Both the position numbers and the translations under genes were made by a program. A stretch of 64,000 nucleotides of DNA from Bolinopsis microptera (lineage: Eukaryota; Ctenophora; Tentaculata; Lobata; Bolinopsidae), in the NCBI RefSeq assembly GCF_026151205.1, contig NC_087079.1, forward strand, positions 12,516,635 to 12,580,634. Direction: 5' to 3'. Positions 644-34,167 of the stretch are shown here, piece after piece; positions within the stretch are counted from its first letter, which is position 1; each line of letters opens with the position of its first letter. The notes beneath the pieces are model-generated. The model was not told the origin of the DNA, did no database searches, and saw only the letters and a program-made list of their open reading frames with translations.

Positions 644-3600
644 TTACGCGTTGTCGCTTACTAACTCGGTGTTGTAGTCTATCTGCGAGCGCCCTTCTCT
701 TTGAGACTTTCTTAGCCCAGGTATACTATAAAGTAAGAAATTTGGCCAATTTTCATCGTCTCCTGAGCTTTGCAGCTTGAGGAGTTCGCGCTTAGCTGAA
801 TTTTTAAAGATTTCAATTGAAAAGGTAGAACTTGGAATAGTTATATCCTTACTTTGTTTTGTAATAGAGAGCATGGGTCCTTTGAAGAAAAGAGTATTTC
901 TAAATGTTGGGCCGTTGTAAGTTGTGAACCAAGAAAGGTTATGTTCGTATGTGGAATTATAGGTGGGAATATCGCGAGGGAAAAGTTCTTTGATGGATTT
1001 AGGGAGAAGGCTTGGCATGTTCCTTACTTTGTGTAGTAGAATAAGAGCGTTTTTTACAATGACGCTATGGACTGTTAGGATATTATGCAATCTAAACGCA
1101 CTTTTTGTGTGCTCCGGGGGATTGCCGTCTTTATATCTATAATTTACATATCCTGACATAACAGCTCTAATTCCCTGCTTTTGCTTGGTGAACAGAGATT
1201 CAATGTGACATTTTGAGGCAAATCCCCACACTAAGGAACAGAAATTTAGATGGGATTGGGTAAGGCTTTGGAAAATGTTTAGGCGGGCTTTGATAGGTAG
1301 AAGGTGCTTTAGCTTATACATAACTCCGAGGTAGCGACCCATCTTTATTTTAACTGCCGTAATGTGTTTTTGCCAAGTGAGCTTTTCGTCTAGGATCACT
1401 CCTAAAAATCTTGCTTCAGTCTTACGTTCGATTACAGTGTTGTCAATGGACAAATTAAAGCCGCTGAAGTCGATTCTTTTTCTAGTGAAAATCATGTAAC
1501 ACGTCTTTTTTACATTTAAAGATAGCCCATTAGCACCTACCCAATCTACAAGACGTGAAATTAGCTGATTAGCTTTTAATTGTATTTCTTTCTAGGGTGG
1601 TTCCACTAATTAATATGTTTGCGTCGTCGGCATAAAGGATGAACTTTGCAAAATCACTAATTCCAGGTAGGTCGTTTATATAAATTACAAATAAGAGAGG
1701 TCCTAAAATGCTACCCTGAGGTACGCCGTAAACTATGGGCATGCTAGAAGAGCAAATTCCGTTTAAAGTTACGTATTGAGATCGATTACAAAGGTAAGAT
1801 CTAAACCATTCGTGCGCGACTCCCCTGATCCCACAATGGTCAAGCTTCTTAAGTAAGGTCTCATGATCAAGCACGTCAAAGGCTTTACTGTAATCGAGCA
1901 GGAGCAGTAGGGAAATTTGTTTCTTATTCAGAGAGTGTAGTATAGAATTTTGGGCATTGAGCAGTGCATGTTCGCACGATCTTCCTGGCCGAAATCCGTA
2001 TTGATTTTCGATAAGAGAATCGTTCTTATCTAAAAATTCTAAAACACGAGCATGCATAAGTTTCTCATAAATTTTCGAGAATGATCCCAAAAGAGAGATC
2101 GGCCTATAATTAGCTACTTCCAATTTTGAACCACCTTTGTGGATAGGAACGACTTTCGCAGTTTTTAGAGCATTTGGGAAGGTACCACTGGAGAACGAAC
2201 AGTTAATGACATTAGCTAGTGCCCTGGTAAAGTTTTCGCAGCTGTTTGCAATTTTCAATGGCTCAATTTTACAATCGAGTGTGGACTTGTTCTTAAGCCC
2301 TGATATTATCTTTTGGACTTCACCGTGTGATGTAGGCTTAAGAAACATCGAGTTACTACACGAAGCCTTAAGAAAATGCTTGAAACCACCTGGGTCAAAG
2401 GTTCGACGGGCAGCGATTTGCCTCTTGATACTGGCTGCAATACCGGAGAAGTAGCCGTTAAATTTCTCAGCGACTGCCAGATCGGAGCTTATAATCGTGC
2501 CATCGTCGTCCTTCAGACGGGTGTGTCCGAACTTTTTTCTGTTACGGTTCAGGAGGCCATTGATAATTTTCCATTGATTTTTAGAGCAGTTTTGGTATTT
2601 GTCAAACATTTTCTTATAGTACTTTTCTTTGGCTAGATTCACATGTTTGTGACAAAACTTTTTCATTTTATCATACGCGTCGCAGTTTTTTTGTGATGGA
2701 TTTATAGTTTTTTCAAAAAAAGTAACTTCTTGCGGTTGCATGCCGCCTCAAGCCAGGGTAAGATCCAAGGCTTTGGGTCAGCTCTTTCGAATTTTCTTCT
2801 CGAACTGTCGCGCTTCAGGGGGAATGCAGTATTGTAGTGTTTCATGTACGTTTGATAGATGGAATTGTATTGTTCATCAGCGCACGTTGAGGAGGTAGCA
2901 TCATCCCAGGTCTCACTTACAATAAGCTCTTTGAATTTAGCATGATTAGCTTCGTTAAATACACGGGCCTCTATTTTCAAGCTAGTGTTGTTGTTCTTTA
3001 CACGTTGACTACGGAATCGCTCGTTCAAACTAGGTGTGGCTCCTAAACTAATGGTCGTGCTAACCGCGAGATGATCTGACATATCCAACGTCACGACATT
3101 ACAACTAATAACGTTGGTCACGTGATTAGTATACACGTGATCAATAAGCGTTGCACTGTGGTCAGTTACCCTGGTAGGCTTGGAGACAGTCTGGGCAAAC
3201 CCATATTTTTCTAGTAAGCTTATAAGATCCTGGCTGTAAGCGTCGGTATCGTATTTTATAAGATCAATATTTGCATCACCCAGGAAGACTATCTGCTTTC
3301 TGGAGTGTCTATCAAGACCCCTGAGCACGTTTTCAAACTTTTCAAGGAATTTTTTAGGGCTTGTGGATGGCGAGCGGTAGAAATTTACGATGATTTTTGT
3401 CTTATTTCCGTTTTTAAAATTGTTGATTTTAAGCAATTGAAATTCTCCGCAAGTAACTTCTTCTGGACTCAGATTGAGTTCGAGTTCCTGTATTTTATCG
3501 TAATCACAAACGCGTTTGTTAACATAGAGCGCAAGACCACCTCCTTTTCCAGATTTACGTGCAGGTTCTTTGATAAAGGGCTCGTAAAACTGTTCGATTT

Positions 3601-4126
3601 CAATGTCGTTCAGACCATTAGGAAGATTAGAAATTTTACAGTTGGTTTCATTGAGGCAGATGAGGTCAAATTTGGAGAATGTTTCTATTTCTTCTCTAAA
3701 ATTCGAGATATTCTTCACGAGTGATCTAACGTTTAACGAAAGTATCTTAATTTCGCGATTGCTAGGGGTCTTGATATTATCAGGGTGTTGGTACTTACAG
3801 CTAACCAATATCTCCGATATACAATTGTTGAGATCGATTTCGCTGGAATCTATTTCATCAGTAAGTTTGCCTATTTGATTCAGTACGTGAGAACGAATAT
3901 AGGGGTTAAAAGTGGGGGTTATTGTATTGTAATTATCATTAAGTTCGTAGGAAGTTACTCTATAGCCAGGTATTAGGTTTAGACAGCATGTAATACAACC
4001 AAGATAATCTTTGAGGCATTTTTTATGAACTGGTTTGTCACATAGAGGACAAATGAAAACATTTCTAGGAGCATAAGACCACCCGAAGCAACTTGAGCAT
4101 TGTGATTTGAAACTAGGTTCAACCAT
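644..4126 (-). mobile_element. CR1-like non-LTR retrotransposon (endonuclease + reverse transcriptase), frameshifted
   Basis: Read on the minus strand, the coding region begins at 4126. It opens with a PHD-type C4HC3 zinc finger (Cys10, 13, 26, 29, His34, Cys37, 44, 47). An EEP endonuclease follows with SLNVRSL, LNETN, FLGDANIDL and SDHLAVS. Reverse transcriptase follows with LLLDYSKAFD, GVPQGSILGPLLF and YADDANIL, then a C-terminal region ending in a stop at 644. The frame breaks twice. One base appears lost in a T-run (minus strand) near 2715, and one A appears gained in an A-run near 1578. On both sides the sequence stays clearly LINE-like. The combination points to the CR1/Jockey superfamily; exact clade not determined. 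It lies antisense inside thiolase intron 1. No clear target-site duplication or 3' microsatellite was found. Confidence 0.88.
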
Positions 4127-5871: not shown

Positions 5872-6441
5872 ATGGGAAAACAGAACAGCAAACTTAAACC
5901 GGAGGGAATGTCCGATCTCCGTGAAATGACCAGGTTCTCAACAAAGGAATTGAAGTTATGGTACAGGGGCTTCCTGCACGACTGTCCCAGTGGAACGCTA
6001 GATATAGAAGAGTTCAAGAAGATCTACGGCACGTTCTTCCCTTGCGGAGACGCCGCGCTGTTTGCTGAGCACGTGTTCAGAACATTTGATGCTAACGGGG
6101 ATGGGTTTATAGATTTCAGGGAGTTTATAATTGCTTTGTCTGTCACCTCACGAGGGACACTCGATGAGAAGCTGAAGTGGGCGTTCAGTATGTATGATTT
6201 GGATGGAAACGGAGACATCTCCAAGGATGAGATGCTGGAGATAGTGATGGCTATCTATAAAATGGTAAACAACACGGACATGCCAGAGGACGAGAATACG
6301 CCGGAGAAACGGGTTGACAAGATCTACAGAGAGATGGACAAGGACTCGGACGGTAGACTGTCGATGGAAGAGTTTATTGAGGGGACGAAGAAGGATATAA
6401 GTATCGTGAAGCTGCTACAATGTGATGTTACTGGAGTGTAG
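5872..6441 (+). CDS. neurocalcin/hippocalcin/VILIP-family neuronal calcium sensor
   Basis: An intact 189-aa protein encoded without introns. It starts MGKQNSKL, the family's N-myristoylation signal (Gly2), so a calcium-dependent myristoyl switch at membranes is expected. EF-hand 1 (about residues 37-48) carries the family's degenerate CPSG loop and should not bind calcium. EF2 (73-84, [12 protein letters not shown]), EF3 (109-120, [12 protein letters not shown]) and EF4 (156-167, [12 protein letters not shown]) have full acidic ligand sets. [15 protein letters not shown] and [17 protein letters not shown] are near-identical to animal neurocalcin/hippocalcin proteins, and length is normal for the family. 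The gene lies wholly inside thiolase intron 1. The lack of introns could mean a retrogene or simple intron loss. It converges on the GPCR gene at 6953-8002. Confidence 0.96.
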
Positions 6442-13639: not shown

Positions 13640-14690
13640 AACAGAATCACAATGCTGGCAAGCATTACCGTCGCCCTTATATTCACAATACTATTTACCC
13701 CCTATACTATTATATCCCCTTTATTGTTTTTCAGGCATTAAGACTCATCGAAAGTAGTTCAGCAGGTATATTCAAAACATTCTAATTCAATGTTAAAGAT
13801 GACAGGAATCACAGTGCTGGCAAGCACGACCGTTGCATTTATTGTGGGTATACTATGTACCCCATTTACTATTATACCCCCTTTACTATTATACCCCCTT
13901 TACTATTATACCCCCTTTACTATTATACCCCCTTTACTATTATACCCTCTTTGTTACACGTTTTACAAGCCTCTTTCGTGCACGCGAAGCGTGCACTCCG
14001 GCCGGAGGCGGCGGCCGAAGGCCGCCGCCTCCGGCAGGAGTTTTTCAGACATTAAGACTCATCGGAAGTCGTTCAGCAGATTTATTTTAGTTCAAAACAT
14101 TCTAATTTGATGTCAAAGATGACAGGAATAAAAAATAGTTATGTTGAGATTTTTAAGAAATTTGCATAAAATACTCGCCAGCACTGTTATACGAAATTCG
14201 GTAAAAAAAACCCAAAATCGCCATATTCAGGTGCCTTAAAAACCATGTTAAAATTAAGTTAGAGATCTGAAATTTTTCAGGGCGTCTAGACGTTGACCAA
14301 ATCGACTGCAAAAAAAGTTTCAGGTTTCAGGAACATCGGGAAGTGGGTTTTCTAGAACCCCTGTTTTATGACAGATTGTCGTGATATATACATATATACA
14401 TATTCAGGGATAGACGCTTTGCCAGTCAATTGTAGCCTGTATTTAATTGTCCATAGATTCAAAAGTATAAAAGATACAGCCATTTCCGACCACAGGTCTT
14501 GAAAATAATTGTTTACACTTTAGTTTACATTGTACAAACAAATTATTTGACGTCATGAACACCCTTTGATGACGTCATCAAGTTAACCGTTTTTAAAACT
14601 TGATTTTTGACAAAGTAATAACTTTTAAAAACGATTTTACACCATTAAAAAGTAATTGTATTCAAAATCTGAGGAAATTTTCATCTTAGA
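13640..14690 (+). repeat. element L, left half (interrupted by the insertion at 14691)
   Basis: A repeat of unknown class, also present at 26355-26720, 27217-27491, 28004-29640 (minus) and about 29645-30653. It starts with a diverged 150-bp duplicate of its own end (GCTGGCAAGCA to the TAAAGATGACAGGAAT region). It then has a six-copy 17-bp repeat (13864-13955, core TTTACTATTATACCCCC), two GC-rich hairpins (13978-14035), and a long AT-rich body with CRE palindromes near 14567. No credible protein is encoded. Open frames over the 17-bp repeat are repeat artefacts. Comparison with the intact minus copy shows it is cut at TCATCTTAGA (14681-14690) and resumes at 26355. Confidence 0.8.
13978..14035. 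repeat. two adjacent GC-rich hairpins with GAA triloops
   Basis: GTGCACGC-GAA-GCGTGCAC (8-bp stem, 13978-13996) is followed by a 16-bp perfect stem at 14001-14016/14020-14035, also with a GAA loop. Both are conserved in the inverted copy at 29419-29476. There the small hairpin has an AAA loop in element orientation. Confidence 0.9.
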
Positions 14691-14804
14691 TTTTTTTTTT
14701 TTTTTTTTTGTTCAGGGAGCAGGCTTGCCACATAGGTCCAGGAGTACCGAACGTTTAGGCAGGGTGCTAGGTTATGGAACACACTCAACTAGTATAGGTA
14801 GTCT

Positions 14805-14944
14805 GAGAGTCCGAAATCTCCAAAAGGAGATGTCATCAGAGTGTGATCCACTGCCTGACTAACCTGTGGGTAGAGTTCATTAGACTCTATAATGATGACA
14901 GGTAGTATCTTCTGTATGTTGCTGAGATCCAGTGTCCATGGTAC
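14805..14944 (-). other. short open frame near the poly(A) end of the insertion
   Basis: Minus strand. It is open from GTACCATGG (14944) for about 50 codons through ILPVIIIESNELYPQ to SDYLY and TAG, ending about 95 bp before the poly(A) tract. An AG just upstream could be an acceptor, and an in-frame TAG precedes that. It could be the 3' coding end of a captured transcript. The evidence is only the open frame and its position. Confidence 0.25.
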
Positions 14945-15094
14945 CTATCACCTATCTAGATAATAATAACAAAATGGGAGGCTCTATTTGTCCAAGTGTG
15001 CTTCAAATTAAACTGATAAATAAAATACAAATTTGAATTTAAAAATTTTAAAAATTTTTAAAACCAATAATAAATATAAGGATAAATACCTTGA

Positions 15095-15922
15095 CTGGAA
15101 TAGTGAATGTCTCTGAAGAAGTAGAGACGTAAAACTTGTTACGACACGATATAATGCTGAAAGAAAGCCTGTCTCTGAAGAAGGAGAGACAATGAAACAA
15201 GATACGACACGGTATGTTGAACTAAAGCATGTCTCTGAAGAAGGAGAGACGACACGGTATGTTGAAAGAAAGCCTGTGTCTGATGAAGGAGACACGATAA
15301 AGCATGATACGACGCGGTATGTTGAAATAAAGCCTGTCTCTGAAGAAGGAGAGACGACACGGTATGCTGCAAGAAAGCCGGTCTCTGAAGGAGAGCCCAT
15401 AAAAACATGATACGACATGGTATGTTGAAATAAAGCCTGTCTCTGAAGGAGAGACGATAAAAACTTGATACGACATGGTATGCTGCAAGAAAGCCGGTCT
15501 CTGAAGGAGAGACCATAAAAACATGATACGACATGGTATGTTGAAATAAAGCCTGTCTCTGAAGGAGAGACGATAAAAACTTGATACGACACGGTATGCA
15601 GAAAGAAAGCCAGTCTCTGAAGAAGGAGAGACGAAAAAAAAAAAAACTTGATACAACATGGTATGAGGTATACTAAAAGAAAGCCTGTCTCTGAAGAAGG
15701 AGAGACGATAAAACGTGATACGACATGGTATGTTGAAAGAAAGCCTGTCTCTGAAGAAGGAGAGACGATTAAGCATGATACGACACGGTATGTTGAAAGA
15801 AAGCCTGTCTCTGAAGAAGGAGAGACGATAAAGCATGATACGACACGGTATGCTGAAAGAAGCCTGTCTCTGAAGAAGGAGACACGATAAAGCATGATAC
15901 GACACGGTATGTTGAAATAAAG
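15095..15922. repeat. minisatellite of about 14 hairpin-forming units (about 58-65 bp)
   Basis: Units contain GTCTCTGAAGAAGGAGAGAC, an inverted repeat (GTCTC/GAGAC arms), followed by GATAAAGCATGATACGACAC and GGTATGTTGAAAGAAAGCC. Four central units lack three bases in the loop (GAAGGAG). Open frames run through both strands only because the units lack stops. One unit (15276-15295) has paired changes in both arms. Confidence 0.9.
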
Positions 15923-16084
15923 TCTAATGAAGTAAGTCAGACAAGCAAACGCTTCAGGTTAAATGTAGATATAAGTCGTCTCCATCCCAGAAATAATGAA
16001 TGATGACCCAGTGTAAAAGTGCAGAAATCAGCCTAAAATAACAAATACTAAAAGCAGTTAAAAAGTGACAGTATTCAAACACAA

Positions 16085-19000
16085 GGTAATTTAATAACAT
16101 AGAACGTAACAAGGAATATCTCCAAACGGAGTTTTCTTAGAGGGTGAGAGGTTCTTTAATAAGACCTAATGATTAAAATTAACCGGACTGCTAGCGAGGA
16201 ATCGAGAGTGGGAATAAAATAAAAGCGAAATAAATTCTAAGATAACGAAAAAGTGGTACAGAAAGCTAATGTCCTAACACGGAGTCTAGGAAAAACCTGT
16301 GAACCAAATAAGCAGAATGGCACCCGTGCATGAAGTGTTAAAATAAATACCGTTCTAGAATGCCTGCGGAGGCATTATTACTCCTTTATAATGCATTATG
16401 CACGTGTTAGAAAATTTAGTAAAAATTAATAGCATAGAACGTAGCAAGGAATGTCTCCAAACGGAGTTTTCTTAGAGGGTGAGAGGTTCTTTAATAAGAC
16501 CTAATGATTAAAATTAACCGGACTGCTAGCGAGGAATCGAGAGTGGGAATAAAATAAAAGCGAAATAAATTCTAAGATAACGAAAAAGTGGTACAGAAAG
16601 CTAATGTCCTAACACGGAGTCTAGGAAAAACCTGTGAACCAAATAAGCAGAATGGCACCCGTGCATGAAGTGTTAAAATAAATACCGTTCTAGAATGCCT
16701 GCGGAGGCATTATTACTCCTTTATAATGCATTATGCACGTGTTAGAAAATTTAGTAAAAATTAATAGCATAGAACGTAGCAAGGAATGTCTCCAAACGGA
16801 GTTTTCTTAGAGGGTGAGAGGTTCTTTAATAAGACCTAATGATTAAAATTAACCGGACTGCTAGCGAGGAATCGAGAGTGGGAATAAAATAAAAGCGAAA
16901 TAAATTCTAAGATAACGAAAAAGTGGTACAGAAAGCTAATGTCCTAACACGGAGTCTAGGAAAAACCTGTGAACCAAATAAGCAGAATGGCACCCGTGCA
17001 TGAAGTGTTAAAATAAATACCGTTCTAGAATGCCTGCGGAGGCATTATTACTCCTTTATAATGCATTATGCACGTGTTAGAAAATTTAGTAAAAATTAAT
17101 ACATAGAACGTAGCAAGGAATGTCTCCAAACGGAGTTTTCTTAGAGGGTGAGAGGTTCTTTAATAAGACCTAATGATTAAAATTAACCGGACTGCTAGCG
17201 AGGAATCGAGAGTGGGAATAAAATAAAAGCGAAATAAATTCTAAGATAACGAAAAAGTGGTACAGAAAGCTAATGTCCTAACACGGAGTCTAGGAAAAAC
17301 CTGTGAACCAAATAAGCAGAATGGCACCCGTGCATGAAGTGTTAAAATAAATACCGTTCTAGAATGCCTGCGGAGGCATTATTACTCCTTTATAATGCAT
17401 TATGCACGTGTTAGAAAATTTAGTAAAAATTAATAGCATAGAACGTAGCAAGGAATGTCTCCAAACGGAGTTTTCTTAGAGGGTGAGAGGTTCTTTAATA
17501 AGACCTAATGATTAAAATTAACCGGACTGCTAGCGAGGAATCGAGAGTGGGAATAAAATAAAAGCGAAATAAATTCTAAGATAACGAAAAAGTGGTACAG
17601 AAAGCTAATGTCCTAACACGGAGTCTAGGAAAAACCTGTGAACCAAATAAGCAGAATGGCACCCGTGCATGAAGTGTTAAAATAAATACCGTTCTAGAAT
17701 GCCTGCGGAGGCATTATTACTCCTTTATAATGCATTATGCACGTGTTAGAAAATTTAGTAAAAATTAATAGCATAGAACGTAGCAAGGAATATCTCCAAA
17801 CGGAGTTTTCTTAGAGGGTGAGAGGTTCTTTAATAAGACCTAATGATTAAAATTAACCGGACTGCTAGCGAGGAATCGAGAGTGGGAATAAAATAAAAGC
17901 GAAATAAATTCTAAGATAACGAAAAAGTGGTACAGAAAGCTAATGTCCTAACACGGAGTCTAGGAAAAACCTGTGAACCAAATAAGCAGAATGGCACCCG
18001 TGCATGAAGTGTTAAAATAAATACCGTTCTAGAATGCCTGCGGAGGCATTATTACTCCTTTATATTGCATTATGCACGTGTTAGAAAATTTAGTAAAAAT
18101 TAATAACATAGAACGTAGCAAGGAATGATCTCCAAACGGAGTTTTCTTAGAGGGTGAGAGGTTCTTTAATAAGACCTAATGATTAAAATTAACCGGACTG
18201 CTAGCGAGGAATCGAGAGTGGGAATAAAATAAAAGCGAAATAAATTCTAAGATAACGAAAAAGTGGTACAGAAAGCTAATGTCCTAACACGGAGTCTAGG
18301 AAAAACCTGTGAACCAAATAAGCAGAATGGCACCCGTGCATGAAGTGTTAAAATAAATACCGTTCTAGAATGCCTGCGGAGGCATTATTACTCCTTTATA
18401 ATGCATTATGCACGTGTTAGAAAATTTAGTAAAAATTAATAGCATAGAACGTAGCAAGGAATGTCTCCAAACGGAGTTTTCTTAGAGGGTGAGAGGTTCT
18501 TTAATAAGACCTAATGATTAAAATTAACCGGACTGCTAGCGAGGAATCGAGAGTGGGAATAAAATAAAAGCGAAATAAATTCTAAGATAACGAAAAAGTG
18601 GTACAGAAAGCTAATGTCCTAACACGGAGTCTAGGAAAAACCTGTGAACCAAATAAGCAGAATGGCACCCGTGCATGAAGTGTTAAAATAAATACCGTTC
18701 TAGAATGCCTGCGGAGGCATTATTACTCCTTTATAATGCATTATGCACGTGTTAGAAAATTTAGTAAAAATTAATAGCATAGAACGTAGCAAGGAATATC
18801 TCCAAACGGAGTTTTCTTAGAGGGTGAGAGGTTCTTTAATAAGACCTAATGATTAAAATTAACCGGACTGCTAGCGAGGAATCGAGAGTGGGAATAAAAT
18901 AAAAGCGAAATAAATTCTAAGATAACGAAAAAGTGGTACAGAAAGCTAATGTCCTAACACGGAGTCTAGGAAAAACCTGTGAACCAAATAAGCAGAATGG

Positions 19001-22000
19001 CACCCGTGCATGAAGTGTTAAAATAAATACCGTTCTAGAATGCCTGCGGAGGCATTATTACTCCTTTATAATGCATTATGCACGTGTTAGAAAATTTAGT
19101 AAAAATTAATAACATAGAACGTAGCAAGGAATGTCTCCAAACGGAGTTTTCTTAGAGGGTGAGAGGTTCTTTAATAAGACCTAATGATTAAAATTAACCG
19201 GACTGCTAGCGAGGAATCGAGAGTGGGAATAAAATAAAAGCGAAATAAATTCTAAGATAACGAAAAAGTGGTACAGAAAGCTAATGTCCTAACACGGAGT
19301 CTAGGAAAAACCTGTGAACCAAATAAGCAGAATGGCACCCGTGCATGAAGTGTTAAAATAAATACCGTTCTAGAATGCCTGCGGAGGCATTATTACTCCT
19401 TTATAATGCATTATGCACGTGTTAGAAAATTTAGTAAAAATTAATAGCATAGAACGTAGCAAGGAATGTCTCCAAACGGAGTTTTCTTAGAGGGTGAGAG
19501 GTTCTTTAATAAGACCTAATGATTAAAATTAACCGGACTGCTAGCGAGGAATCGAGAGTGGGAATAAAATAAAAGCGAAATAAATTCTAAGATAACGAAA
19601 AAGTGGTACAGAAAGCTAATGTCCTAACACGGAGTCTAGGAAAAACCTGTGAACCAAATAAGCAGAATGGCACCCGTGCATGAAGTGTTAAAATAAATAC
19701 CGTTCTAGAATGCCTGCGGAGGCATTATTACTCCTTTATAATGCATTATGCACGTGTTAGAAAATTTAGTAAAAATTAATAGCATAGAACGTAGCAAGAA
19801 ATGAACGAAGCGGTGAAAATCTTAGAGGGTGAGAGGTTCTTTAATAAGACCTAATGATTAAATTTAACCGGACTGCTAGCGAGGAATCGAGAGTGGGAAT
19901 AAAATAAAAGCGAAATAAATTCTAAGATAACGAAAAGTGGTACAGAAAGCTAATGTCCTAACACGGAGTCTAGGAAAAACCTGTGAACCAAATAAGCAGA
20001 ATGGCACCCGTGCGTGAAGTGTTAAAATAAATACCGTTCTAGAATGCCTGCGGAGGCATTATTACTCCTTTATAATGCATTATGCACGTGTTAGAAAATT
20101 TAATAAAAGATAAAATAATAAAGCTAAAATGAACGAAGCGGTGAAAATCTTAGAGGGTGAGAGGTTCTTTAATAAGACCTAATGATTAAATTTAACCGAC
20201 TGCTAGCGAGGAATCGAGAGTGGGAATAAAATAAAAGCGAAATAAATTCTAAGATAACGAAAAAGTGGTACAGAAAGCTAATGTCCTAACACGGAGTCTA
20301 GGAAAAACCTGTGAACCAAATAAGCAGAATGGCACCCGTGCGTGAAGTGTTAAAATAAATACCGTTCTAGAATGCCTGCGGAGGCATTATTACTCCTTTA
20401 TAATGCATTATGCACGTGTTAGAAAATTTAATAAAAGATAAAATAATAAAGCTAAAATGAACGAAGCGGTGAAAATCTTAGAGGGTGAGAGGTTCTTTAA
20501 TAAGACCTAATGATTAAATTTAACCGGACTGCTAGCGAGGAATCGAGAGTGGGAATAAAATAAAAGCGAAATAAATTCTAAGATAACGAAAAAGTGGTAC
20601 AGAAAGCTAATGTCCTAACACGGAGTCTAGGAAAAACCTGTGAACCAAATAAGCAGAATGGCACCCGTGCGTGAAGTGTTAAAATAAATACCGTTCTAGA
20701 ATGCCTGCGGAGGCATTATTACTCCTTTATAATGCATTATGCACGTGTTAGAAAATTTAATAAAAGATAAAAATAATAAAGCTAGCAAGGAATGTCTCCA
20801 AACGGAGTTTTCTTAGAGGGTGAGAGGTTCTTTAATAAGACCTAATGATTAAAATTAACCGGACTGCTAGCGAGGAATCGAGAGTGGGAATAAAATAAAA
20901 GCGAAATAAATTCTAAGATAACGAAAAAGTGGTACAGAAAGCTAATGTCCTAACACGGAGTCTAGGAAAAACCTGTGAACCAAATAAGCAGAATGGCACC
21001 CGTGCATGAAGTGTTAAAATAAATACCGTTCTAGAATGCCTGCGGAGGCATTATTACTCCTTTATATTGCATTATGCACGTGTTAGAAAATTTAGTAAAA
21101 ATTAATAGCATAGAACGTAGCAAGGAATATCTCCAAACGGAGTTTTCTTAGAGGGTGAGAGGTTCTTTAATAAGACCTAATGATTAAAATTAACCGGACT
21201 GCTAGCGAGGAATCGAGAGTGGGAATAAAATAAAAGCGAAATAAATTCTAAGATAACGAAAAAGTGGTACAGAAAGCTAATGTCCTAACACGGAGTCTAG
21301 GAAAAACCTGTGAACCAAATAAGCAGAATGGCACCCGTGCATGAAGTGTTAAAATAAATACCGTTCTAGAATGCCTGCGGAGGCATTATTACTCCTTTAT
21401 AATGCATTATGCACGTGTTAGAAAATTTAGTAAAAATTAATAGCATAGAACGTAGCAAGGAATGTCTCCAAACGGAGTTTTCTTAGAGGGTGAGAGGTTC
21501 TTTAATAAGACCTAATGATTAAAATTAACCGGACTGCTAGCGAGGAATCGAGAGTGGGAATAAAATAAAAGCGAAATAAATTCTAAGATAACGAAAAAGT
21601 GGTACAGAAAGCTAATGTCCTAACACGGAGTCTAGGAAAAACCTGTGAACCAAATAAGCAGAATGGCACCCGTGCATGAAGTGTTAAAATAAATACCGTT
21701 CTAGAATGCCTGCGGAGGCATTATTACTCCTTTATAATGCATTATGCACGTGTTAGAAAATTTAGTAAAAGATTAATAGCATAGAACGTAGCAAGGAATG
21801 TCTCCAAACGGAGTTTTCTTAGAGGGTGAGAGGTTCTTTAATAAGACCTAATGATTAAAATTAACCGGACTGCTAGCGAGGAATCGAGAGTGGGAATAAA
21901 ATAAAAGCGAAATAAATTCTAAGATAACGAAAAAGTGGTACAGAAAGCTAATGTCCTAACACGGAGTCTAGGAAAAACCTGTGAACCAAATAAGCAGAAT

Positions 22001-25000
22001 GGCACCCGTGCATGAAGTGTTAAAATAAATACCGTTCTAGAATGCCTGCGGAGGCATTATTACTCCTTTATAATGCATTATGCACGTGTTAGAAAATTTA
22101 GTAAAAATTAATAGCATAGAACGTAGCAAGGAATGTCTCCAAACGGAGTTTTCTTAGAGGGTGAGAGGTTCTTTAATAAGACCTAATGATTAAAATTAAC
22201 CGGACTGCTAGCGAGGAATCGAGAGTGGGAATAAAATAAAAGCGAAATAAATTCTAAGATAACGAAAAAGTGGTACAGAAAGCTAATGTCCTAACACGGA
22301 GTCTAGGAAAAACCTGTGAACCAAATAAGCAGAATGGCACCCGTGCATGAAGTGTTAAAATAAATACCGTTCTAGAATGCCTGCGGAGGCATTATTACTC
22401 CTTTATAATGCATTATGCACGTGTTAGAAAATTTAGTAAAAATTAATAGCATAGAACGTAGCAAGGAATGTCTCCAAACGGAGTTTTCTTAGAGGGTGAG
22501 AGGTTCTTTAATAAGACCTAATGATTAAAATTAACCGGACTGCTAGCGAGGAATCGAGAGTGGGAATAAAATAAAAGCGAAATAAATTCTAAGATAACGA
22601 AAAAGTGGTACAGAAAGCTAATGTCCTAACACGGAGTCTAGGAAAAACCTGTGAACCAAATAAGCAGAATGGCACCCGTGCATGAAGTGTTAAAATAAAT
22701 ACCGTTCTAGAATGCCTGCGGAGGCATTATTACTCCTTTATAATGCATTATGCACGTGTTAGAAAATTTAGTAAAAATTAATAGCATAGAACGTAGCAAG
22801 GAATGTCTCCAAACGGAGTTTTCTTAGAGGGTGAGAGGTTCTTTAATAAGACCTAATGATTAAAATTAACCGGACTGCTAGCGAGGAATCGAGAGTGGGA
22901 ATAAAATAAAAGCGAAATAAATTCTAAGATAACGAAAAAGTGGTACAGAAAGCTAATGTCCTAACACGGAGTCTAGGAAAAACCTGTGAACCAAATAAGC
23001 AGAATGGCACCCGTGCATGAAGTGTTAAAATAAATACCGTTCTAGAATGCCTGCGGAGGCATTATTACTCCTTTATATTGCATTATGCACGTGTTAGAAA
23101 ATTTAGTAAAAATTAATAGCATAGAACGTAGCAAGGAATGTCTCCAAACGGAGTTTTCTTAGAGGGTGAGAGGTTCTTTAATAAGACCTAATGATTAAAA
23201 TTAACCGGACTGCTAGCGAGGAATCGAGAGTGGGAATAAAATAAAAGCGAAATAAATTCTAAGATAACGAAAAAGTGGTACAGAAAGCTAATGTCCTAAC
23301 ACGGAGTCTAGGAAAAACCTGTGAACCAAATAAGCAGAATGGCACCCGTGCATGAAGTGTTAAAATAAATACCGTTCTAGAATGCCTGCGGAGGCATTAT
23401 TACTCCTTTATAATGCATTATGCACGTGTTAGAAAATTTAGTAAAAATTAATAGCATAGAAGCTAGCAAGGAATATCTCCAAACGGAGTTTTCTTAGAGG
23501 GTGAGAGGTTCTTTAATAAGACCTAATGATTAAAATTAACCGGACTGCTAGCGAGGAATCGAGAGTGGGAATAAAATAAAAGCGAAATAAATTCTAAGAT
23601 AACGAAAAAGTGGTACAGAAAGCTAATGTCCTAACACGGAGTCTAGGAAAAACCTGTGAACCAAATAAGCAGAATGGCACCCGTGCATGAAGTGTTAAAA
23701 TAAATACCGTTCTAGAATGCCTGCGGAGGCATTATTACTCCTTTATAATGCATTATGCACGTGTTAGAAAATTTAGTAAAAATTAATAGCATAGAACGTA
23801 GCAAGGAATGTCTCCAAACGGAGTTTTCTTAGAGGGTGAGAGGTTCTTTAATAAGACCTAATGATTAAAATTAACCGGACTGCTAGCGAGGAATCGAGAG
23901 TGGGAATAAAATAAAAGCGAAATAAATTCTAAGATAACGAAAAAGTGGTACAGAAAGCTAATGTCCTAACACGGAGTCTAGGAAAAACCTGTGAACCAAA
24001 TAAGCAGAATGGCACCCGTGCATGAAGTGTTAAAATAAATACCGTTCTAGAATGCCTGCGGAGGCATTATTGCTCCTTTATAATGCATTATGCACGTGTT
24101 AGAAAATTTAGTAAAAATTAATAGCATAGAACGTAGCAAGGAATGTCTCCAAACGGAGTTTTCTTAGAGGGTGAGAGGTTCTTTAATAAGACCTAATGAT
24201 TAAAATTAACCGGACTGCTAGCGAGGAATCGAGAGTGGGAATAAAATAAAAGCGAAATAAATTCTAAGATAACGAAAAAGTGGTACAGAAAGCTAATGTC
24301 CTAACACGGAGTCTAGGAAAAACCTGTGAACCAAATAAGCAGAATGGCACCCGTGCATGAAGTGTTAAAATAAATACCGTTCTAGAATGCCTGCGGAGGC
24401 ATTATTACTCCTTTATATTGCATTATGCACGTGTTAGAAAATTTAGTAAAAATTAATAGCATAGAACGTAGCAAGGAATGTCTCCAAACGGAGTTTTCTT
24501 AGAGGGTGAGAGGTTCTTTAATAAGACCTAATGATTAAAATTAACCGGACTGCTAGCGAGGAATCGAGAGTGGGAATAAAATAAAAGCGAAATAAATTCT
24601 AAGATAACGAAAAAGTGGTACAGAAAGCTAATGTCCTAACACGGAGTCTAGGAAAAACCTGTGAACCAAATAAGCAGAATGGCACCCGTGCATGAAGTGT
24701 TAAAATAAATACCGTTCTAGAATGCCTGCGGAGGCATTATTACTCCTTTATAATGCATTATGCACGTGTTAGAAAATTTAGTAAAAATTAATAGCATAGA
24801 ACGTAGCAAGGAATGTCTCCAAACGGAGTTTTCTTAGAGGGTGAGAGGTTCTTTAATAAGACCTAATGATTAAAATTAACCGGACTGCTAGCGAGGAATC
24901 GAGAGTGGGAATAAAATAAAAGCGAAATAAATTCTAAGATAACGAAAAAGTGGTACAGAAAGCTAATGTCCTAACACGGAGTCTAGGAAAAACCTGTGAA

Positions 25001-26354
25001 CCAAATAAGCAGAATGGCACCCGTGCATGAAGTGTTAAAATAAATACCGTTCTAGAATGCCTGCGGAGGCATTATTGCTCCTTTATAATGCATTATGCAC
25101 GTGTTAGAAAATTTAGTAAAAATTAATAGCATAGAACGTAGCAAGGAATGTCTCCAAACGGAGTTTTCTTAGAGGGTGAGAGGTTCTTTAATAAGACCTA
25201 ATGATTAAAATTAACCGGACTGCTAGCGAGGAATCGAGAGTGGGAATAAAATAAAAGCGAAATAAATTCTAAGATAACGAAAAAGTGGTACAGAAAGCTA
25301 ATGTCCTAACACGGAGTCTAGGAAAAACCTGTGAACCAAATAAGCAGAATGGCACCCGTGCATGAAGTGTTAAAATAAATACCGTTCTAGAATGCCTGCG
25401 GAGGCATTATTGCTCCTTTATAATGCATTATGCACGTGTTAGAAAATTTAGTAAAAATTAATAGCATAGAACGTAGCAAGGAATGTCTCCAAACGGAGTT
25501 TTCTTAGAGGGTGAGAGGTTCTTTAATAAGACCTAATGATTAAAATTAACCGGACTGCTAGCGAGGAATCGAGAGTGGGAATAAAATAAAAGCGAAATAA
25601 ATTCTAAGATAACGAAAAAGTGGTACAGAAAGCTAATGTCCTAACACGGAGTCTAGGAAAAACCTGTGAACCAAATAAGCAGAATGGCACCCGTGCATGA
25701 AGTGTTAAAATAAATACCGTTCTAGAATGCCTGCGGAGGCATTATTGCTCCTTTATAATGCATTATGCACGTGTTAGAAAATTTAGTAAAAATTAATAGC
25801 ATAGAACGTAGCAAGGAATGTCTCCAAACGGAGTTTTCTTAGAGGGTGAGAGGTTCTTTAATAAGACCTAATGATTAAAATTAACCGGACTGCTAGCGAG
25901 GAATCGAGAGTGGGAATAAAATAAAAGCGAAATAAATTCTAAGATAACGAAAAAGTGGTACAGAAAGCTAATGTCCTAACACGGAGTCTAGGAAAAACCT
26001 GTGAACCAAATAAGCAGAATGGCACCCGTGCATGAAGTGTTAAAATAAATACCGTTCTAGAATGCCCGCGGAGGCATTATTGCTCCTTTATAATGCATTA
26101 TGCACGTGTTAGAAAATTTAGTAAAAATTAATAGCATAGAACGTAGCAAGGAATATCTCCAAACGGAGTTTTCTTAGAGGGTGAGAGGTTCTTTAATAAG
26201 ACCTAATGATTAAAATTAACCGGACTGCTAGCGAGGAATCGAGAGTGGGAATAAAATAAAAGCGAAATAAATTCTAAGATAACGAAAAAGTGGTACAGAA
26301 AGCTAATGTCCTAACACGGAGTCTAGGAAAAACCTGTGAACCAAATAAGCAGAA
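16085..26354. repeat. 335-bp satellite array, 30 full units plus one truncated
   Basis: Using GAACGT as the register (or its equivalent in variant units), units start at 16102, 16437, 16772, 17106 and so on to 26139. Spacing is almost always 335 bp (334-336 through single-base indels; three variant units differ). Units are nearly identical, with only a few recurrent variants (ATATCTCC/ATGTCTCC, TATATTGC/TATAATGC, ATTATTGCTCC/ATTATTACTCC). Each unit contains a 7-bp-stem hairpin (AATGCCT-GCGG-AGGCATT), the palindrome ATAATGCATTAT and a CACGTG. No open frame of note and no RNA gene were recognised in a unit. The last unit stops after about 215 bp at the insertion edge. Confidence 0.97.
19787..20782. 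repeat. variant satellite units in mid-array
   Basis: Three consecutive units replace the stretch around GGAATGTCTCCAAACGGAG with ATGAACGAAGCGGTGAAAATC. They also share CGTGCGTGAAG in place of CGTGCATGAAG and AATTTAACC in place of AAATTAACC. The end of this block (about 20760-20790) shows a junction, TAAAAATAATAAAGCTAGCAAGG, back to the standard type. Confidence 0.9.
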
Positions 26355-26720
26355 TCATCTTAGATAATTGTTCAAGCATTCTGAAAATCTACCGGAAAGT
26401 TTTTCTAGCTTGCTCCTTCATAAAGATATTCGTCATTGAAGTTTGTGCTTTTTTGAAGAATTATTTTATAAAAACGTCAATTTTGCGATTTAGTATTCTC
26501 TGGTGTTGGGCCATGCCTTGGGATGTGGAGCTCAGTTCTGCTTCCTATAGGTATAAATTGTGCATTAGGCTAGTTTTAAAGTTGAAAATAGAAAAGTTGC
26601 ACACGTGGGGACACGCCCAAATTGATAGAAAATTGATTGATAGAAAATTATTAATGAAGATATCAGTTTATATTTCGACTTTATAAAGTACCCTGACATT
26701 ATAATCAAAAATAGATGATA
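26355..26720 (+). repeat. element L, right half
   Basis: Continues element L from TCATCTTAGATAATTG. Compared with the inverted copy it has an internal deletion after CACGCCCAAATTGATAG. It ends at AATAGATGATA, directly against a long-TIR MITE. Confidence 0.8.
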
Positions 26721-27214
26721 TTTGACCAAAACCCATAATCATGGGTAGAGTGGACCGCTGCCAGTGTCTCTCTTTCCCAAACAAAAGGAAATGATATTAA
26801 TTTGATTGACCGTTCTCAAATGCAAAATGATACCGAGAATGAAATCGGTCGCTCGCTTTTCCCATTCATTTACAATTGTAATAGACTATGAAAAACTACC
26901 CAAAGGCAGCTGTACTCGGCAATAAAGATTCAATAAACTTCAGCAGTAGTAACTACCACCCTTACCCCGAAATACTAGGTATCGACCCGAACGCAACCCA
27001 AAGAGATTTTTACAGCATCTGATTGATGTAATCAATCGAAACTTATTACAATTCGAAAGCCGTGAATGAATGGGAAAAGCGAGCGACCGATTTCATTCTC
27101 GGTATCATTTTGCATTTGAGAACGGTCAATCAAATTAATATCATTTCCTTTTGTTTGGGAAAGAGAGACACTGGCAGCGGTACACTCTACCCATGATTAT
27201 GGGTTTTGGTCAAA
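26721..27214. mobile_element. long-TIR MITE copy 1 (TA target site)
   Basis: TIRs of about 150 bp start TTTGACCAAAACCC and include TCATGGGTAGAGTG, CAGTGTCTCTCTTT and CGGTCGCTCGC. TA flanks both ends. The unique middle of about 190 bp encodes nothing. TA duplication suggests mobilisation by a Tc1/mariner-type transposase. Confidence 0.8.
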
Positions 27215-27216
27215 TA

Positions 27217-27491
27217 AGAAATAGTTATATGGAGGTTTTTAAGAAATTTGCGCAAAATACGCGCCAGCATGTTATACGAAATTAGGTAAAAAACCCAAAA
27301 TCACCATATTCAGGTGCCTTAAAAACCGTGTTAAAATTGAGTTAGAGATCTGAAACTTTGCAGGGCGTCTAGACCTTGCCCAAATCGACTGTAAACCAAA
27401 TTTCATGTTTCAGCAGTATCGGCAAGTGGGTTTTCTGGAACCCCTGTTTTACAACAGATTGTCGTGAAGCATATATATATATTATATATTA
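27217..27491 (+). repeat. element L, middle fragment
   Basis: Similar to 14126-14390, ending in an AT dinucleotide stretch before MITE copy 2. Confidence 0.75.
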
Positions 27492-27493
27492 TA

Positions 27494-28001
27494 TTTTACC
27501 AAAACCCATAATCATGGGTAGAGTGGACCGCTGCCAGTGTCTCTCTTTCCCAAACAAAAGGAAATGATATTAATTTGCAATTGACCGTTCTCAAATGCAA
27601 AATGATACCGAGAATGAAATCGGTCGCTCGCTTTTCCCATTCATTCACGGCTTACGAATTGTAATAATTTTCGATTGATTACATGTCAATCAGATGCTGT
27701 AAAAATCTCTTTGGGTTGCGTTCGGGTCGATACCTAGTATTTCGGGTTAAGGGTGGTAGTTATCACTTATTGCATTAGCTGAAGTTTATTGAATCTTTAT
27801 TGCCGAGTACAGCTGCCTTTGGGTAGTTCTTCTTAATCTATTACAATTGTAAATGAATGGGAAAAGCGAGCGACCGATTTCATTCTCGGTATCATTTTGC
27901 ATTTGAGAACGGTCAATCAAATTAATATCATTTCCTTTTGTTTGGGAAAGAGAGACACTGGCAGCGGTCCACTCTACCCATGATTATGGGTTTTGGTAAA
28001 A
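27494..28001. mobile_element. long-TIR MITE copy 2, inverted relative to copy 1
   Basis: Same TIRs, starting TTTTACCAAAACCC, with TA on both sides. The interior is the reverse complement of the copy 1 interior with several substitutions. Confidence 0.8.
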
Positions 28002-28003
28002 TA

Positions 28004-29640
28004 TCATCTCTTTTTGATTATAATGTCAGGGTACTTTATAAAGTCGAAATATAAACTGGTATCTTCATTATAATAAGGAGGAAGTTTCAACGATTTCGAA
28101 ATTTTTCCTTTAAAAACATTTCCTTGTGTTTAGGTAAGCATATCGGTCGATCACTGACTGAATATACCACTTAATACTCATTCAAGTTGACATTAAATTC
28201 ATATATAATGACATTAAACTGTCGTGGCAAAGCAGAATTTGTTGGAAATCACGAATGAGCAAAATTCTCACCTTTCGCACGTGCAACTGCAAACTTTGAG
28301 CGGACGTTGCATGCGCATCCAATATTGAATCGCCGTAAATTTTTGCATGTAATTGTTTTATATATAGCTTGATAAGCATGCAAAGTTTGAAAGTATTTCA
28401 AGAAGAACTGTAATCACAACGGCACTCTAAAGTTGACAGAAAATGACGAAAACAGCAATTTTCAGTGATTTTAGCAATTTTCTATCAATTTGGGCGTGTC
28501 CCCACGTGTGCAACTTTTCGATTTTCAACTTTAAAACTAGCCTAATGCACAATTTATACCTATAGGAAGCAGAACTGAGCTCCACAACCCAAGGCATGGC
28601 CCAACACCAAAGAATACTAAATCGCAAAATTGACGTTTTTATAAAATAATTCTTCAAAAAAGCACAAACTTCAATGACAAATATCTTTATGAAGGAGCAA
28701 GCTAGAAAAACTTTCCGGTAGATTTTCAGATGCTTGAACAATTATCTGAGATAAAATTTCCTCAGATTTTGAATAAAATTACTCCTTAATGGGTTAAAAT
28801 TAATTTTAAAAGTTATTACTATTATTAACCGTTTTTAAAATCAAGTTTTAAAAACGGTTAACTTGATGACGTCATCAAGGGGTGTTTATGACGTCAAATA
28901 AATTTTTTATACAATGTAAACTAAAGTGTAAACAATTATTTGCAAGACCTGTGGTCGGAAATGGCTGTATCTTTTATACTTATGAATCTATGGACACTTA
29001 AATACAGGCTACAATTGGCTGGCAAAGCGTCTATCCCTGAATATATATGTATATCTGTATGTATGTATATGTCCCGACAATCTGTCGTAAAACAGGGGTT
29101 CTAGAAAACCCATTTCCCGATGCTCCTGAAACCTGAAACTTTTTTTGCAGTCAATTTGGTCAACGTCTAGACGCCCTGAAAAATTTCAGATCTCTAACTC
29201 AATTTTAACATGGTTTTTAGGGCACCTGAATATGGCGATTTTGGGTTTTTTACCGAATTTCGTATAACAGTGCTGGCGAGTATTTTATGCAAATTTCTTA
29301 AAAATCTGAACATAACTATTTTTTATTCCTGTCATCTTTGACATCAAATTAGAATGTTTTGAACTAAAATAAATCTGCTGAACGACTTCCGATGAGTCTT
29401 AATGCCTGGAAAACTCCTGCCGGAGGCGGCGGCCTTCGGCCGCCGCCTCCGGCCGGAGTGCACGCTTTGCGTGCACAAGAGGCTTGTAACGTGTACCAAA
29501 GGGGGTATAATAGTAAAAGGGGTATAATAGTAAAGGGGGTATAATAGTAAAGGGGGTATAATAGTAAAGGGGGTATAATAGTAAATGGGGAACATAGTAT
29601 ACCCACAATAAATGCAACATGCAACGGTCGTGCTTGCCAG
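28004..29640 (-). repeat. element L, most complete copy, minus orientation
   Basis: Runs from ATCATCTCTTTTTGATT to the GCTGGCAAGCACGACC end at about 29640. It includes the CRE palindrome region (near 28870), the two GC hairpins (29419-29476) and the 17-bp repeat (29495-29590). It shows what the copy split at 14690/26355 looked like before insertion. Confidence 0.8.
29419..29476. repeat. GC-rich hairpin pair, second copy
   Basis: A 16-bp perfect stem (29419-29434 with 29438-29453, loop TTC) and an 8-bp stem (29458-29465 with 29469-29476, loop TTT), matching 13978-14035 in inverse orientation. Confidence 0.9.
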
Positions 29641-29644
29641 CACT

Positions 29645-30653
29645 GTGATATGTATAGACGCTTTGGCAGTCAATTGTAGCCTACATTTAAGTGTCCGTAG
29701 ATCCAAAAGTATAAACGATACAGTCATCTCGAACCACAGGTTTTAAAGATAATCGTTTAAACTTCAGTTTACATTGTATTGAAAAATAATTTAACGTCAT
29801 CATCATCACTTGATGACGTCATCAAATTGAGTGTTTTTAAAACTTGATTTTTGACAAAGTAAGAACTTTTCAAATCGATTTTACACCATTAAGGAGTAAT
29901 TATATTCAAAATCTGAGGACATTTTTACCTTAGATAATTGTTCAAGCATTCCGAAAATCTACCGGAAAAGTTTCCTACCTTGCTTCTTCATAAAGATATT
30001 TGCTATTGAAGTTAGTGCTTTTTTAAAGAATAATTTTATAAAAACACAAAAGTTGTGAATTAGTATTCTCTGGTGTTGGGCCATCCCTTGGGTTGTGGAG
30101 CTCAATTTTGCTTCTTAAAAGTGTAAATTGTGTTATAGGCTAGTTTTAAAGTTAAAAATCGAAAAGTTGCACACGTGGGGACACGCCCAAATTCATTTAA
30201 AATAGCTAAAATCACTAAAAATTTTGATTTTCACGATTTTTATCAACTTTGGAGTCCCGTTGTGATCCAAGTTCTTTTTGAAATCTCTTGAAACTTTGCA
30301 TGCTTATCAAACTATATATTAAATACCACTATGCAAAAATTTACGGTGATTCAATATTGTATGCGCACGCTACGTCCGCTCAAAGTTTGCACGTGCGAAA
30401 GGTGAGAATTTTGCGCATTCGTGATTTCGAATATATTCTGCTTTCCACGATATTTAAATGGCATTATATATAAATTTAATGCCAACTTGAATGAGTAAAA
30501 AGTGCCATATTCAGTCGGTTATCGACAGATATACCTACCTAAACACAAGGAAACGTTTTCAAAGGCAGAATTTCGAAATCGTTGAAATTACCTCCTTATT
30601 AATGAAGTTTCGACTGTGTAAATTATCCTGACATTATAATCAAAAAGAGATGA
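29645..30653 (+). repeat. element L, third large copy, head-to-head with the minus copy
   Basis: Begins at GTATAGACGCTTTGGCAG and lacks the 5' portion with the hairpins. With 28004-29640 it forms an imperfect inverted repeat of about 1 kb arms. It ends against MITE copy 3. Confidence 0.75.
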
Positions 30654-30655
30654 TA

Positions 30656-30982
30656 TTTGACCAAAACCCATAATCATGGGTAGAGTGTACCGCTGCCAGT
30701 GTCTCTCTTTTCCAAACAAAAGGAAATGATATTAATTTGAGGAACCGTCCGCTAATGCAAATTGATACCGAGAATGAAATCGGTCGCTCGCTTTTCCCAT
30801 TTAATAAGCTTTATTACAATTCGTAAGCCGTGAATGAATGGGAAAAGCGAGCGACCGATTTCATTCTCGGTATCAATTTGCATTAGCGGACGGTTCCTCA
30901 AATTAATATCATTTCCTTTTGTTTGGAAAAGAGAGACACTGGCAGCGGTACACTCTACCCATGATTATGGGTTTTGGTCAAA
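30656..30982. mobile_element. long-TIR MITE copy 3, interior deleted
   Basis: Two near-complete TIRs separated by only about 40 bp, so the element is almost a perfect palindrome. TA precedes the left end. The right flank is TT, so the target duplication is not intact. Confidence 0.8.
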
Positions 30983-31098
30983 TTCCCCTCTACAAATTGT
31001 AATAAAAACAATAAACAACGCAGCTCAATGCTTTAACTTCGCATGCCAAAACAAATCATCATAAACAACGTCGCATTTCTGATAATTACATAACCAAT

Positions 31099-32615: not shown

Positions 32616-34167
32616 GTGACCGGGACAAAGTAATTCAATCAAATATTCTTTCCAGGAAAATTCACTGATTTTTAAAGCTCACTGAAAGGCACATACCTAC
32701 TTTTTATCAAGTTATTAAAGATTATGTGCGTGTTCGATAAATCTCTGACGACAAAGTTAATTAATTAATATTTCAAAGGTGCTCGTTTCATAGTTCATGA
32801 GCTGATAAAAGATAAAAATTGCAATCGATACGTATCTTCTGTATCGAGAGCTCCCGCTTCCGAGCTCGTGTTGCAAAGGGGAGGCCTGCCTTCCGAAATC
32901 ACATTACCAGGGGGAGCTCTCGAGTCCAAAATTGTGTCATAGAATGGTCGCCCGACCTACCTCCGACCGGCGCCCGACCGACCTCCGACCGGCGCCTGAC
33001 CGACCTCTGACCGACCTCCGACCGGCGCCCGACCGACCTCCGACCGACCTCCGACCGACCTCCGGCCGACCTCCGACCGACCTCCAACCGACCTCCGACC
33101 GACCTTCGACCGAGCTCCGACCGACCTCCGACCGACCTCCGACCGGCGCCCAACCGACCTCCGACCGGCGCCTGACCGACCTCTGACCGACCTCCGACCG
33201 GCGCCCGACCGACCTCCGACCGACCTCCGACCGACCTCCGGCCGACCTCCGACCGACCTCCAACCGACCTCCGACCGACCTTCGACCGAGCTCCGACCGA
33301 CCTCCGACCGACCTCCGACCGGCGCCCGACCGACCGACCACCGACCACCGACTGACATCCGACCGACCTCTGACCGACCTCCGACCAACCTCCGACCGGC
33401 GCCCGACCGACCTCCGACCGACCTTCGTCCGACCTCCGACCGACCTCCGACCGGCGCCCGACCGGCGCCCGATCGACCTCCGACCAACCTCCGACCAACC
33501 TCCGACTAACCTCCGACCGGCGTTCACCTACCGCCGACCGACCTCCGACCGACCTCCGACCGACCTCCGACCGACCTCCGACCGACCTCCGACCGGCGCC
33601 CGACCGGCGCCCGATCGACCTCCGACCAACCTCCGACCGGCGTTCACCTATCGCCGACCTACCGCCGACCGACCTCCGACCGACCTCCGACCGACCTCCG
33701 ACCGACCTCCGACCGACCAGCCTTGTCTTGGCTATGACATGCAATTGTACATGGTGCGCAATTCTTAGACTGATATTTTAGTAAATAATAAAGCATCTAA
33801 GTCTAAGTTCTAATCGGAAGGTATTATAAATATTATAACCTTCCCAGTAACCTCACAACAGAACACCATACGTTGGATGTTGTTTAATAATTCCTTCATT
33901 TTGCTGGTAAATAGAATAGTGGATAGTATTATGCCTCCAAAACTTTATATCCCTGACTCAACTCATTACCAAATAAACTAATTTATACAGAAGCAAACTA
34001 AGCAAGTGAACAGTCATGATGTTTATTATTTCATATTTGGGAAGGTCCTGGGACCAGGAGACTTATAAACCATTAGTGCAGGATGATTGCAATGATCATA
34101 TCTATAGACAAATTTTAAAATATGTATTTAGATGCCCAATTTTGTTCTCAAAAACGCTCTAAGTAAA
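32616..34167. repeat. tandem duplication, copy A (with GACC minisatellite insertion)
   Basis: Starts GTGACCGGGACAAAGTAATTC and ends CAAAAACGCTCTAAGTAAA. Apart from the insertion at 32826-33745 it is nearly identical to copy B at 34381-35249. About 213 bp of unique sequence separate the copies. Confidence 0.9.
32826..33745. mobile_element. 920-bp insertion with 6-bp target duplication, mostly 11-bp minisatellite
   Basis: TGCAAT at 32820-32825 is repeated at 33740-33745. Copy B has a single TGCAAT-type site there, so this is a clean insertion. From about 32945 to 33720 it consists of 11-bp units, mainly CGACCGACCTC with the variant CGACCGGCGCC. The edges (CGATACGTATC..., ...CCTTGTCTTGGCTATGACA) are not inverted repeats of each other. 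Because 11 is not a multiple of 3, several frames stay open with Arg/Gly/Val- or Pro/Thr-rich 11-aa repeats. These are not taken as proteins. Confidence 0.8.

Follow-up and report, generated by a model that had tools for sequence, protein, structure and literature searches.

In the window analysed here, a stretch of 64,000 nucleotides from the ctenophore Bolinopsis microptera, a satellite-like array with units of about 335 bp lies inside an insertion that is bounded by a poly(A) tract and a short duplication, which raises the question of how a tandem array came to be part of a sequence that looks retrotransposed. A preliminary description of this DNA had offered two explanations, the retrotransposition of a very long satellite RNA or the later amplification in place of a short insert, and had also pointed to a resemblance to tandem-monomer LINE promoters. 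The explanation favoured here, to which a probability of about 0.8 is assigned from sequence comparison, is that the element is a full-length non-autonomous non-LTR retrotransposon with promoter-like units, which would have been mobilised in trans by a LINE and whose array would have grown at or after insertion. What is read directly from the sequences is how the element is built, that its 3' end is fixed and one 5' end is preferred, that there are duplications and a tail shared with the LINE, and that units are locus-specific.

The insertion and its parts

A 10-bp direct repeat, TCATCTTAGA, is found at both edges of the insert (14681-14690 on the left and 26355-26364 on the right, from the sequence and the duplication test), and the left edge of the insert itself is a run of 19 T (14691-14709). 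When the two flanks were joined, they aligned without a break to two copies of the host repeat, one at 29649-28475 on the minus strand (93.4% over 1183 columns) and the other at 29654-30203 on the plus strand (86.2% over 550 columns), each of which contains the target site once, in slightly diverged form; thus, 14691-26354 is an insertion. The duplication (perfect over its 10 bp), the 19-T edge and the intact host-repeat copies that read through the site had all been claimed in the preliminary description and are borne out, and the combination of poly(A) and target duplication supports the LINE-type target-primed insertion that it had proposed. The host repeat (13681-14690, 26364-28100 and 28475-31000) consists of direct and inverted copies nested within one another, in which several segments of 110-190 bases are found repeatedly on both strands.

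The element is read on the minus strand, in the order tandem units, junction segment (J), 60-bp repeats, LINE-derived 3' tail and poly(A). Its 5' end is a putative transcription start, (A)TTCTGCTTATTTGG (26320-26354), and the same site is used at 19 of 28 other array edges. Phased from this edge, the array comprises 30 whole units (16318-26354), each spanning the distance between two successive putative start sites, and a part-unit of 227 bases (16091-16317) that extends from its start site to J. Tandem-repeat detection returned a period of 335, 30.7 copies and 98% matches for 16091-26355; 24 of the 30 whole units are 335 bp long, the rest measure 328-336 bp, and 11 of the 30 are identical. 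J (15925-16090) is common to two families, one ending in poly(A), to which the window element belongs (family A), and one ending in (AAAC)n (family B). It is followed by about 13 units of a repeat of about 60 bp (15095-15924), whose number varies between copies and most of which, in the window element, contain the short inverted repeat GTCTCT...AGAGAC. The 3' tail (14710-15094) shares its portion 14710-14955 with the 3' UTR of a LINE that encodes endonuclease, reverse transcriptase and RNase H (EN/RT/RNase H; 97%), and the element finishes with a poly(A) tail of 19 A (14691-14709, from the sequence and the listing of 3' ends).

Seven open reading frames (ORFs) of at least 60 aa overlap the insert, and no reverse transcriptase was seen among them on reading by eye; they appear to be translations of repeats or flank, and the longest of them, of 310 aa, coincides with the 60-bp repeats. 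After J, there is no long ORF in the window insert except over these repeats, and none was seen by eye in the other copies that were translated. Searches of the window found no Rfam match at gathering thresholds and, with ARAGORN, no tRNA gene.

Dispersed copies, their ends and a candidate driver

A 404-base 3' part of the element had 43 matches listed in the genome (205 candidates, 40 scored), of which 19, including the window copy, cover the query to within 13 bases of each end; all repeat counts from the genome searches are lower bounds. Every one of the 24 3' ends examined, those of the LINE and of array-less copies among them, finishes at CCCTGAAC followed by an A-rich run. Eleven further tails are more diverged, several of which were extracted too short to reach the 3' end, and they include one with a different end (L065) and two without the C (L064 and L066).

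The order of array, J, 60-bp repeats and tail is repeated at many loci with separate duplications. Duplications were sought in twelve array copies whose edge was clear and for which both ends were available (C11:1.76, with an irregular edge, was excluded). Nine of them have perfect duplications of their own (10, 14, 13, 10, 12, 13, 16, 10 and 14 bp); in some, up to six additional bases are present at the junction or 1-2 bases overlap there. Since 132 mismatched pairs of 5' and 3' flanks score 3-8 in the same test, compared with 10-16 in these nine true pairs, the window duplication is beyond chance. The copies at C7:3.24, C4:8.62 and C2:3.97 have no duplication (4, 4 and 5 are the three scores), the arrays on C4 and C7 having their outer edges at positions 140 and 142 of the unit. 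In addition, duplications were found in all three array-less copies tested (10, 10 and 12 bp, without a separate control): the 5' end lies inside the 60-bp repeats at C5:22.87 and inside J at C12:10.62, each with a 10-bp duplication, and at C3:11.59 a short inverted piece of 60-bp repeat forms the 5' end, with the 12-bp duplication beyond it. Both 5' truncation and 5' inversion are usual in LINE-made insertions. The inverted piece of 60-bp repeat at the 5' end of an array-less tail copy, with the 12-bp duplication beyond it (L004, near 6047-6079), resembles a LINE 5' inversion.

The features by which the preliminary description would have recognised a retroelement family, namely a shared order, the same final 3' base, varied truncations and separate duplications, were found, although three of the 12 array copies lack the last of these. 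It had counted arrays without poly(A) ends or target duplications against its proposal, and one such array was detected, at C9:10.587 Mb, where J, tail and poly(A) are all absent and the flanks have no duplication in common. This array (L051, C9:10586200-10592000) is 99% like the window unit, contains an inversion and is without tail or duplication. It is the one clear case of an independent array, and 20 of 29 arrays begin at the element 5' end.

These 29 outer edges were taken from among the matches listed in a search with the unit, which reported 174 matches; the count is based on unit matches, so array-less copies fall outside it, and three edges were left out (C11:1.765 and C2:10.40, which are irregular, and C10:2.657, which is of a 343-bp type). 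Twenty edges fall within unit positions 108-111, at CATTCTGCTTATTTGG, read as C followed by ATTCTGCTTATTTGG with the edge between the two, where about 0.35 would be expected if edges were uniform over the 335 positions, and the remaining nine are at positions 36, 79, 97, 114, 118, 140, 142, 241 and 251. The window array begins at position 111, the preceding A being common to the duplication. A comparison of plus-strand flanks of the 108-111 edges, over at most 150 bases and at E 1e-3, found only two recurring sequences, a run of poly-C and one 40-base match that is out of register. Because its edge coincides with the usual array start, the window copy is not 5'-truncated, contrary to the preliminary description; the latter was right that the edge lies inside a unit, but the base at which it "breaks" is the usual start of array copies.

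The start site is also the best conserved stretch of the unit. Over the 30 bases around it, the window unit and the 343-bp unit are 93% identical, compared with 50-90% in other windows of this comparison (27% in the last, poorly aligned window) and a divergence of 28% overall. The CCATTCT at the array start presumably fits the initiator consensus. As most array-bearing related copies start at one base within the unit, the array looks promoter-like, and it is likely to be a tandem chain of promoters, as in mouse L1. The units would then be repeats of a mobile element's 5' end, which agrees with the tandem-monomer LINE promoter mentioned in the preliminary description and makes its retrotransposed "satellite RNA" not quite the right term. 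A single unit starting from the CATTCTG site also occurs directly before an intronless ORF of 369 aa, sulfotransferase-like by eye, at L026 (150-720), where a second unit copy is present at 2453; use of the unit as a promoter for this ORF is possible.

In family B, units and J lead into a body that is about 650 bases long and ends in (AAAC)n, and 40 copies, query included, are 97-100% alike (the best 40 of 560 candidates). Eighteen close copies were fetched, a sample skewed to young copies by being drawn from these best-scored 40 of 560; the 5' edge lies inside the stretch in 15, and three arrays extend past it. Thirteen of the 15 edges are at positions 71-77 of a 356-bp unit and two at 162 and 181, which places the family-B start about 75 bases further on than the CATTCTG site. 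Duplications of 11-14 bp were found in 12 of the 15 (maximum of 9 in 210 mismatched pairs), four of which lie 9-23 bases off the aligned edge, and some may take in tail A. A diverged subgroup (about 83-84% to L007) comprises three copies with 12-13 bp duplications beside (AAAC)n, judged by eye without a control; two of them begin at the CATTCTG site and the third 13 bases upstream of it. Within L007, the family-B body contains an inverted repeat that is imperfect and some 164 bases long (1473-1636, matching itself on the opposite strand at about 70%), and 12 copies of TTAGGG followed by 62 copies of the 7-bp repeat GGGTCCT are present at 3167-3667, within contig C10.

The LINE that shares the tail was found at C30:14944 and C13:5.86, where Pfam identifies Exo_endo_phos_2, RVT_1 and RNase_H in two open pieces; these two copies have their 3' flank in common and probably represent either a single locus or a duplication. 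At L016, the last 253 bp of the LINE match the window tail at 97% identity, ending at the same terminal 3' base. A search with the LINE protein listed 71 matches (4346 candidates, 71 scored), seven of which are this LINE at 68-100% identity, the others being at 30-34%; two of the seven, at C5:9.97 and C13:1.24, have (AAAC)n ends instead. Judging from the common tail, this LINE of low copy number is the probable driver of the window element. It is also conceivable, though we consider it doubtful, that the driver LINE itself begins with an array and that the window element is an internally deleted derivative of it, which would account for the 3' tail common to both and would parallel the mouse L1 array that precedes ORF1, as described in a section of PMC9022269; against this, no array is present in the 6 kb before the C30 copy or in the shorter stretches before the C13 and C5 copies, but the 5' ends of the LINE copies read appear truncated or uncertain. 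At L013, two LINE-type tails lie 3.07 kb apart with an identical 75-aa ORF before each, as if they formed a tandem unit.

Similarity of units and proposed growth of the arrays

Units differ by 0-0.2% within each of four loci, C6 (22 units), C11 (5), C9 (9) and C13 (3), and form a separate clade for each, and the loci with window-type units (the window, C6, C11, C4 and C9) are 1.3-3.4% apart. The window array is less uniform (1.9%) and is not one clade, because its units 17-20 are of another sub-type with switch points in mid-unit, which looks like the result of exchange between units. Compared with its own array, the J-adjacent unit shows a difference of 0% at C6, 0.9% at C11 and 1.3% at C4; the window gives 1.7-2.2%, and the largest value, 9.8%, is that of C13. 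With a range of this width, the arrays are not simple copies of the J-adjacent unit. Array lengths are assembly-dependent, and contig C23 terminates within an array.

Similarly, the units of family B are 258, 282, 257, 293, 262, 282, 292 and 276 bp long at eight loci and constant in length within each, and at a ninth locus, L077, the outermost unit is 282 bp and the four others measured are 205 bp. Substitutions amount to 0-1.6% within and 0.9-6.4% between loci, ranges that overlap, and in each of nine loci the within-locus mean is below the lowest between-locus mean. Unit length is not strictly private, as the 282-bp unit is present in three family-B loci. Given that units are mostly more alike within than between loci, the arrays probably multiply at or after insertion, for which slippage of the reverse transcriptase or unequal exchange may be responsible, and some inheritance of arrays would also be compatible with these data.

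An alternative is that the parent RNA already contained the array of about 10 kb, which was then retrotransposed whole and did not grow later. The outermost unit starts at the start site, the duplication encloses the entire array, and the RNA must have contained one whole unit or more, since what separates J from the next start site is missing from the part-unit adjoining J; the 282-bp unit common to three family-B loci points the same way. However, inherited arrays should have units in common, whereas four loci have a near-identical unit of their own and the family-B unit length differs between most loci while being constant in eight of nine, and transfer of the complete array is therefore regarded as unlikely. 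Capture of an unrelated pre-existing satellite by recombination with a short retroelement insert would suit the C9 array without J or tail and the 343-bp units that lie inside a larger repeat with copies alike on both sides, but it is very improbable in view of the many loci with the order array, J, 60-bp repeats and tail and separate duplications, and of family B, in which array and J are joined to a different body.

The 343-bp type had been considered as a third retroelement with inherited arrays and was dropped, its within-locus mean being 1.97% versus 1.98-2.02% between loci. Four of its 5' edges also have flank in common, which shows that this array is internal to a larger repeat and hence uninformative on array growth. 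The larger repeat (L009 and L112-L117; at least 12 nearly identical copies) contains the 343-bp units and three 60-bp units, and an antisense piece after the units is RT-like by eye.

For the non-autonomous retrotransposon favoured here, we infer that the units act as promoters and that mobilisation occurs in trans, as well as when and how the arrays grow; these steps might be connected as follows. Every unit of about 335 bp would be a repeat of the element's own 5' end, with the start-site motif. Transcription would begin at the outermost usable start site, pass through the array, J, the 60-bp repeats and the tail, and end in polyadenylation; the EN/RT/RNase H LINE with the same last 250 bases would supply the reverse transcriptase that picks up this RNA in trans, and target-primed reverse transcription would produce the target duplications. 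Recombination or slippage, at or after insertion, could then multiply the 5' unit and leave near-identical units that are private to most loci. A more speculative version, which we hold to be rather doubtful, is that every new copy starts from a single incoming unit and makes its promoter array anew, either while target-primed reverse transcription is under way or in the first divisions that follow. If so, promoter number would be reset at each insertion, and the sequence and length of the unit would be a near-private mark of the locus.

Relation to known elements, and other repeats

Tandem 5' units in variable number are known as the monomers of mouse L1 (L1Md A, Gf and Tf), and the relevant sections of PMC9022269 report that starts of Tf insertions cluster at nts 70-110 and that seven loci carry more than 10 intact monomers; other vertebrate L1s with monomer units, and no invertebrate element, are named in those sections. 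Truncation profiles of mouse L1 likewise indicate a preferred start place within the unit, and the multiplication of the tandem promoter units is called unclear, in passages of PMC6454616. The window family resembles mouse L1 in its variable tandem 5' units and in starts clustered at one unit position (20/29), but the window element is not an L1: it is without LINE ORFs, its array does not precede ORF1/ORF2, its unit measures about 335 bp, and the number of units reaches 30 in one copy.

The SVA and LAVA elements of apes are described in parts of PMC7353768 and PMC4432496 as non-autonomous composites that are moved by a LINE and have a variable tandem repeat. The window element is comparable in being composite, non-autonomous and probably LINE-moved, with a variable tandem part, the 60-bp repeats being the part compared. 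SVA and LAVA elements have poly(A), and their VNTR is flanked by Alu-like and SINE-R/L1 parts; unlike them, the window element has a promoter-like 5' array and shares its 3' end with the driver LINE. Pairs of LINEs and SINEs with a common 3' tail also exist, and in the same manner the window-type passenger and its LINE have the last ~250 bases and the 3' end in common, but this passenger reaches 11.7 kb or more and ARAGORN found no tRNA gene in the window. From its organisation, the element may be placed among the LINE-mobilised non-autonomous retrotransposons, distinguished by its tandem 5' array. A literature search found no description of such an element in this kind of genome, which is not proof of absence.

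The element would represent a separate case of the mouse-L1-like design, with two families on one 5' module, unit lengths that vary between most loci and a copy of 30 units. As the number and sequence of units can be compared at the same insertion across individuals, the question of how promoter units multiply becomes testable. A route from the 5' end of a mobile element to a satellite-like array is also suggested.

A structured RNA in the 3' tail was considered and rejected. RNAalifold on 19 tails predicted 49 pairs, of which only three show changes on both sides, with +0.96 kcal/mol as the covariation term, so that tail RNA structure is not supported; the window tail alone has a folding z of -1.81, with 11 of 200 shuffles equally good. 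The 60-bp units contain a six-pair stem, which is GTCTCT/AGAGAC in 78 of 124 units and GTGTCT/AGACAC in 24, the one-sided intermediate GTGTCT/AGAGAC occurring in four and other variants in 18; this single compensated change, possibly spread within arrays, is weak evidence of structure. Elsewhere in the window, at 32952-33718, an 11-bp tandem repeat, CCGACCGACCT, is present in about 70 copies, with a G+C content above that of the rest of the window.
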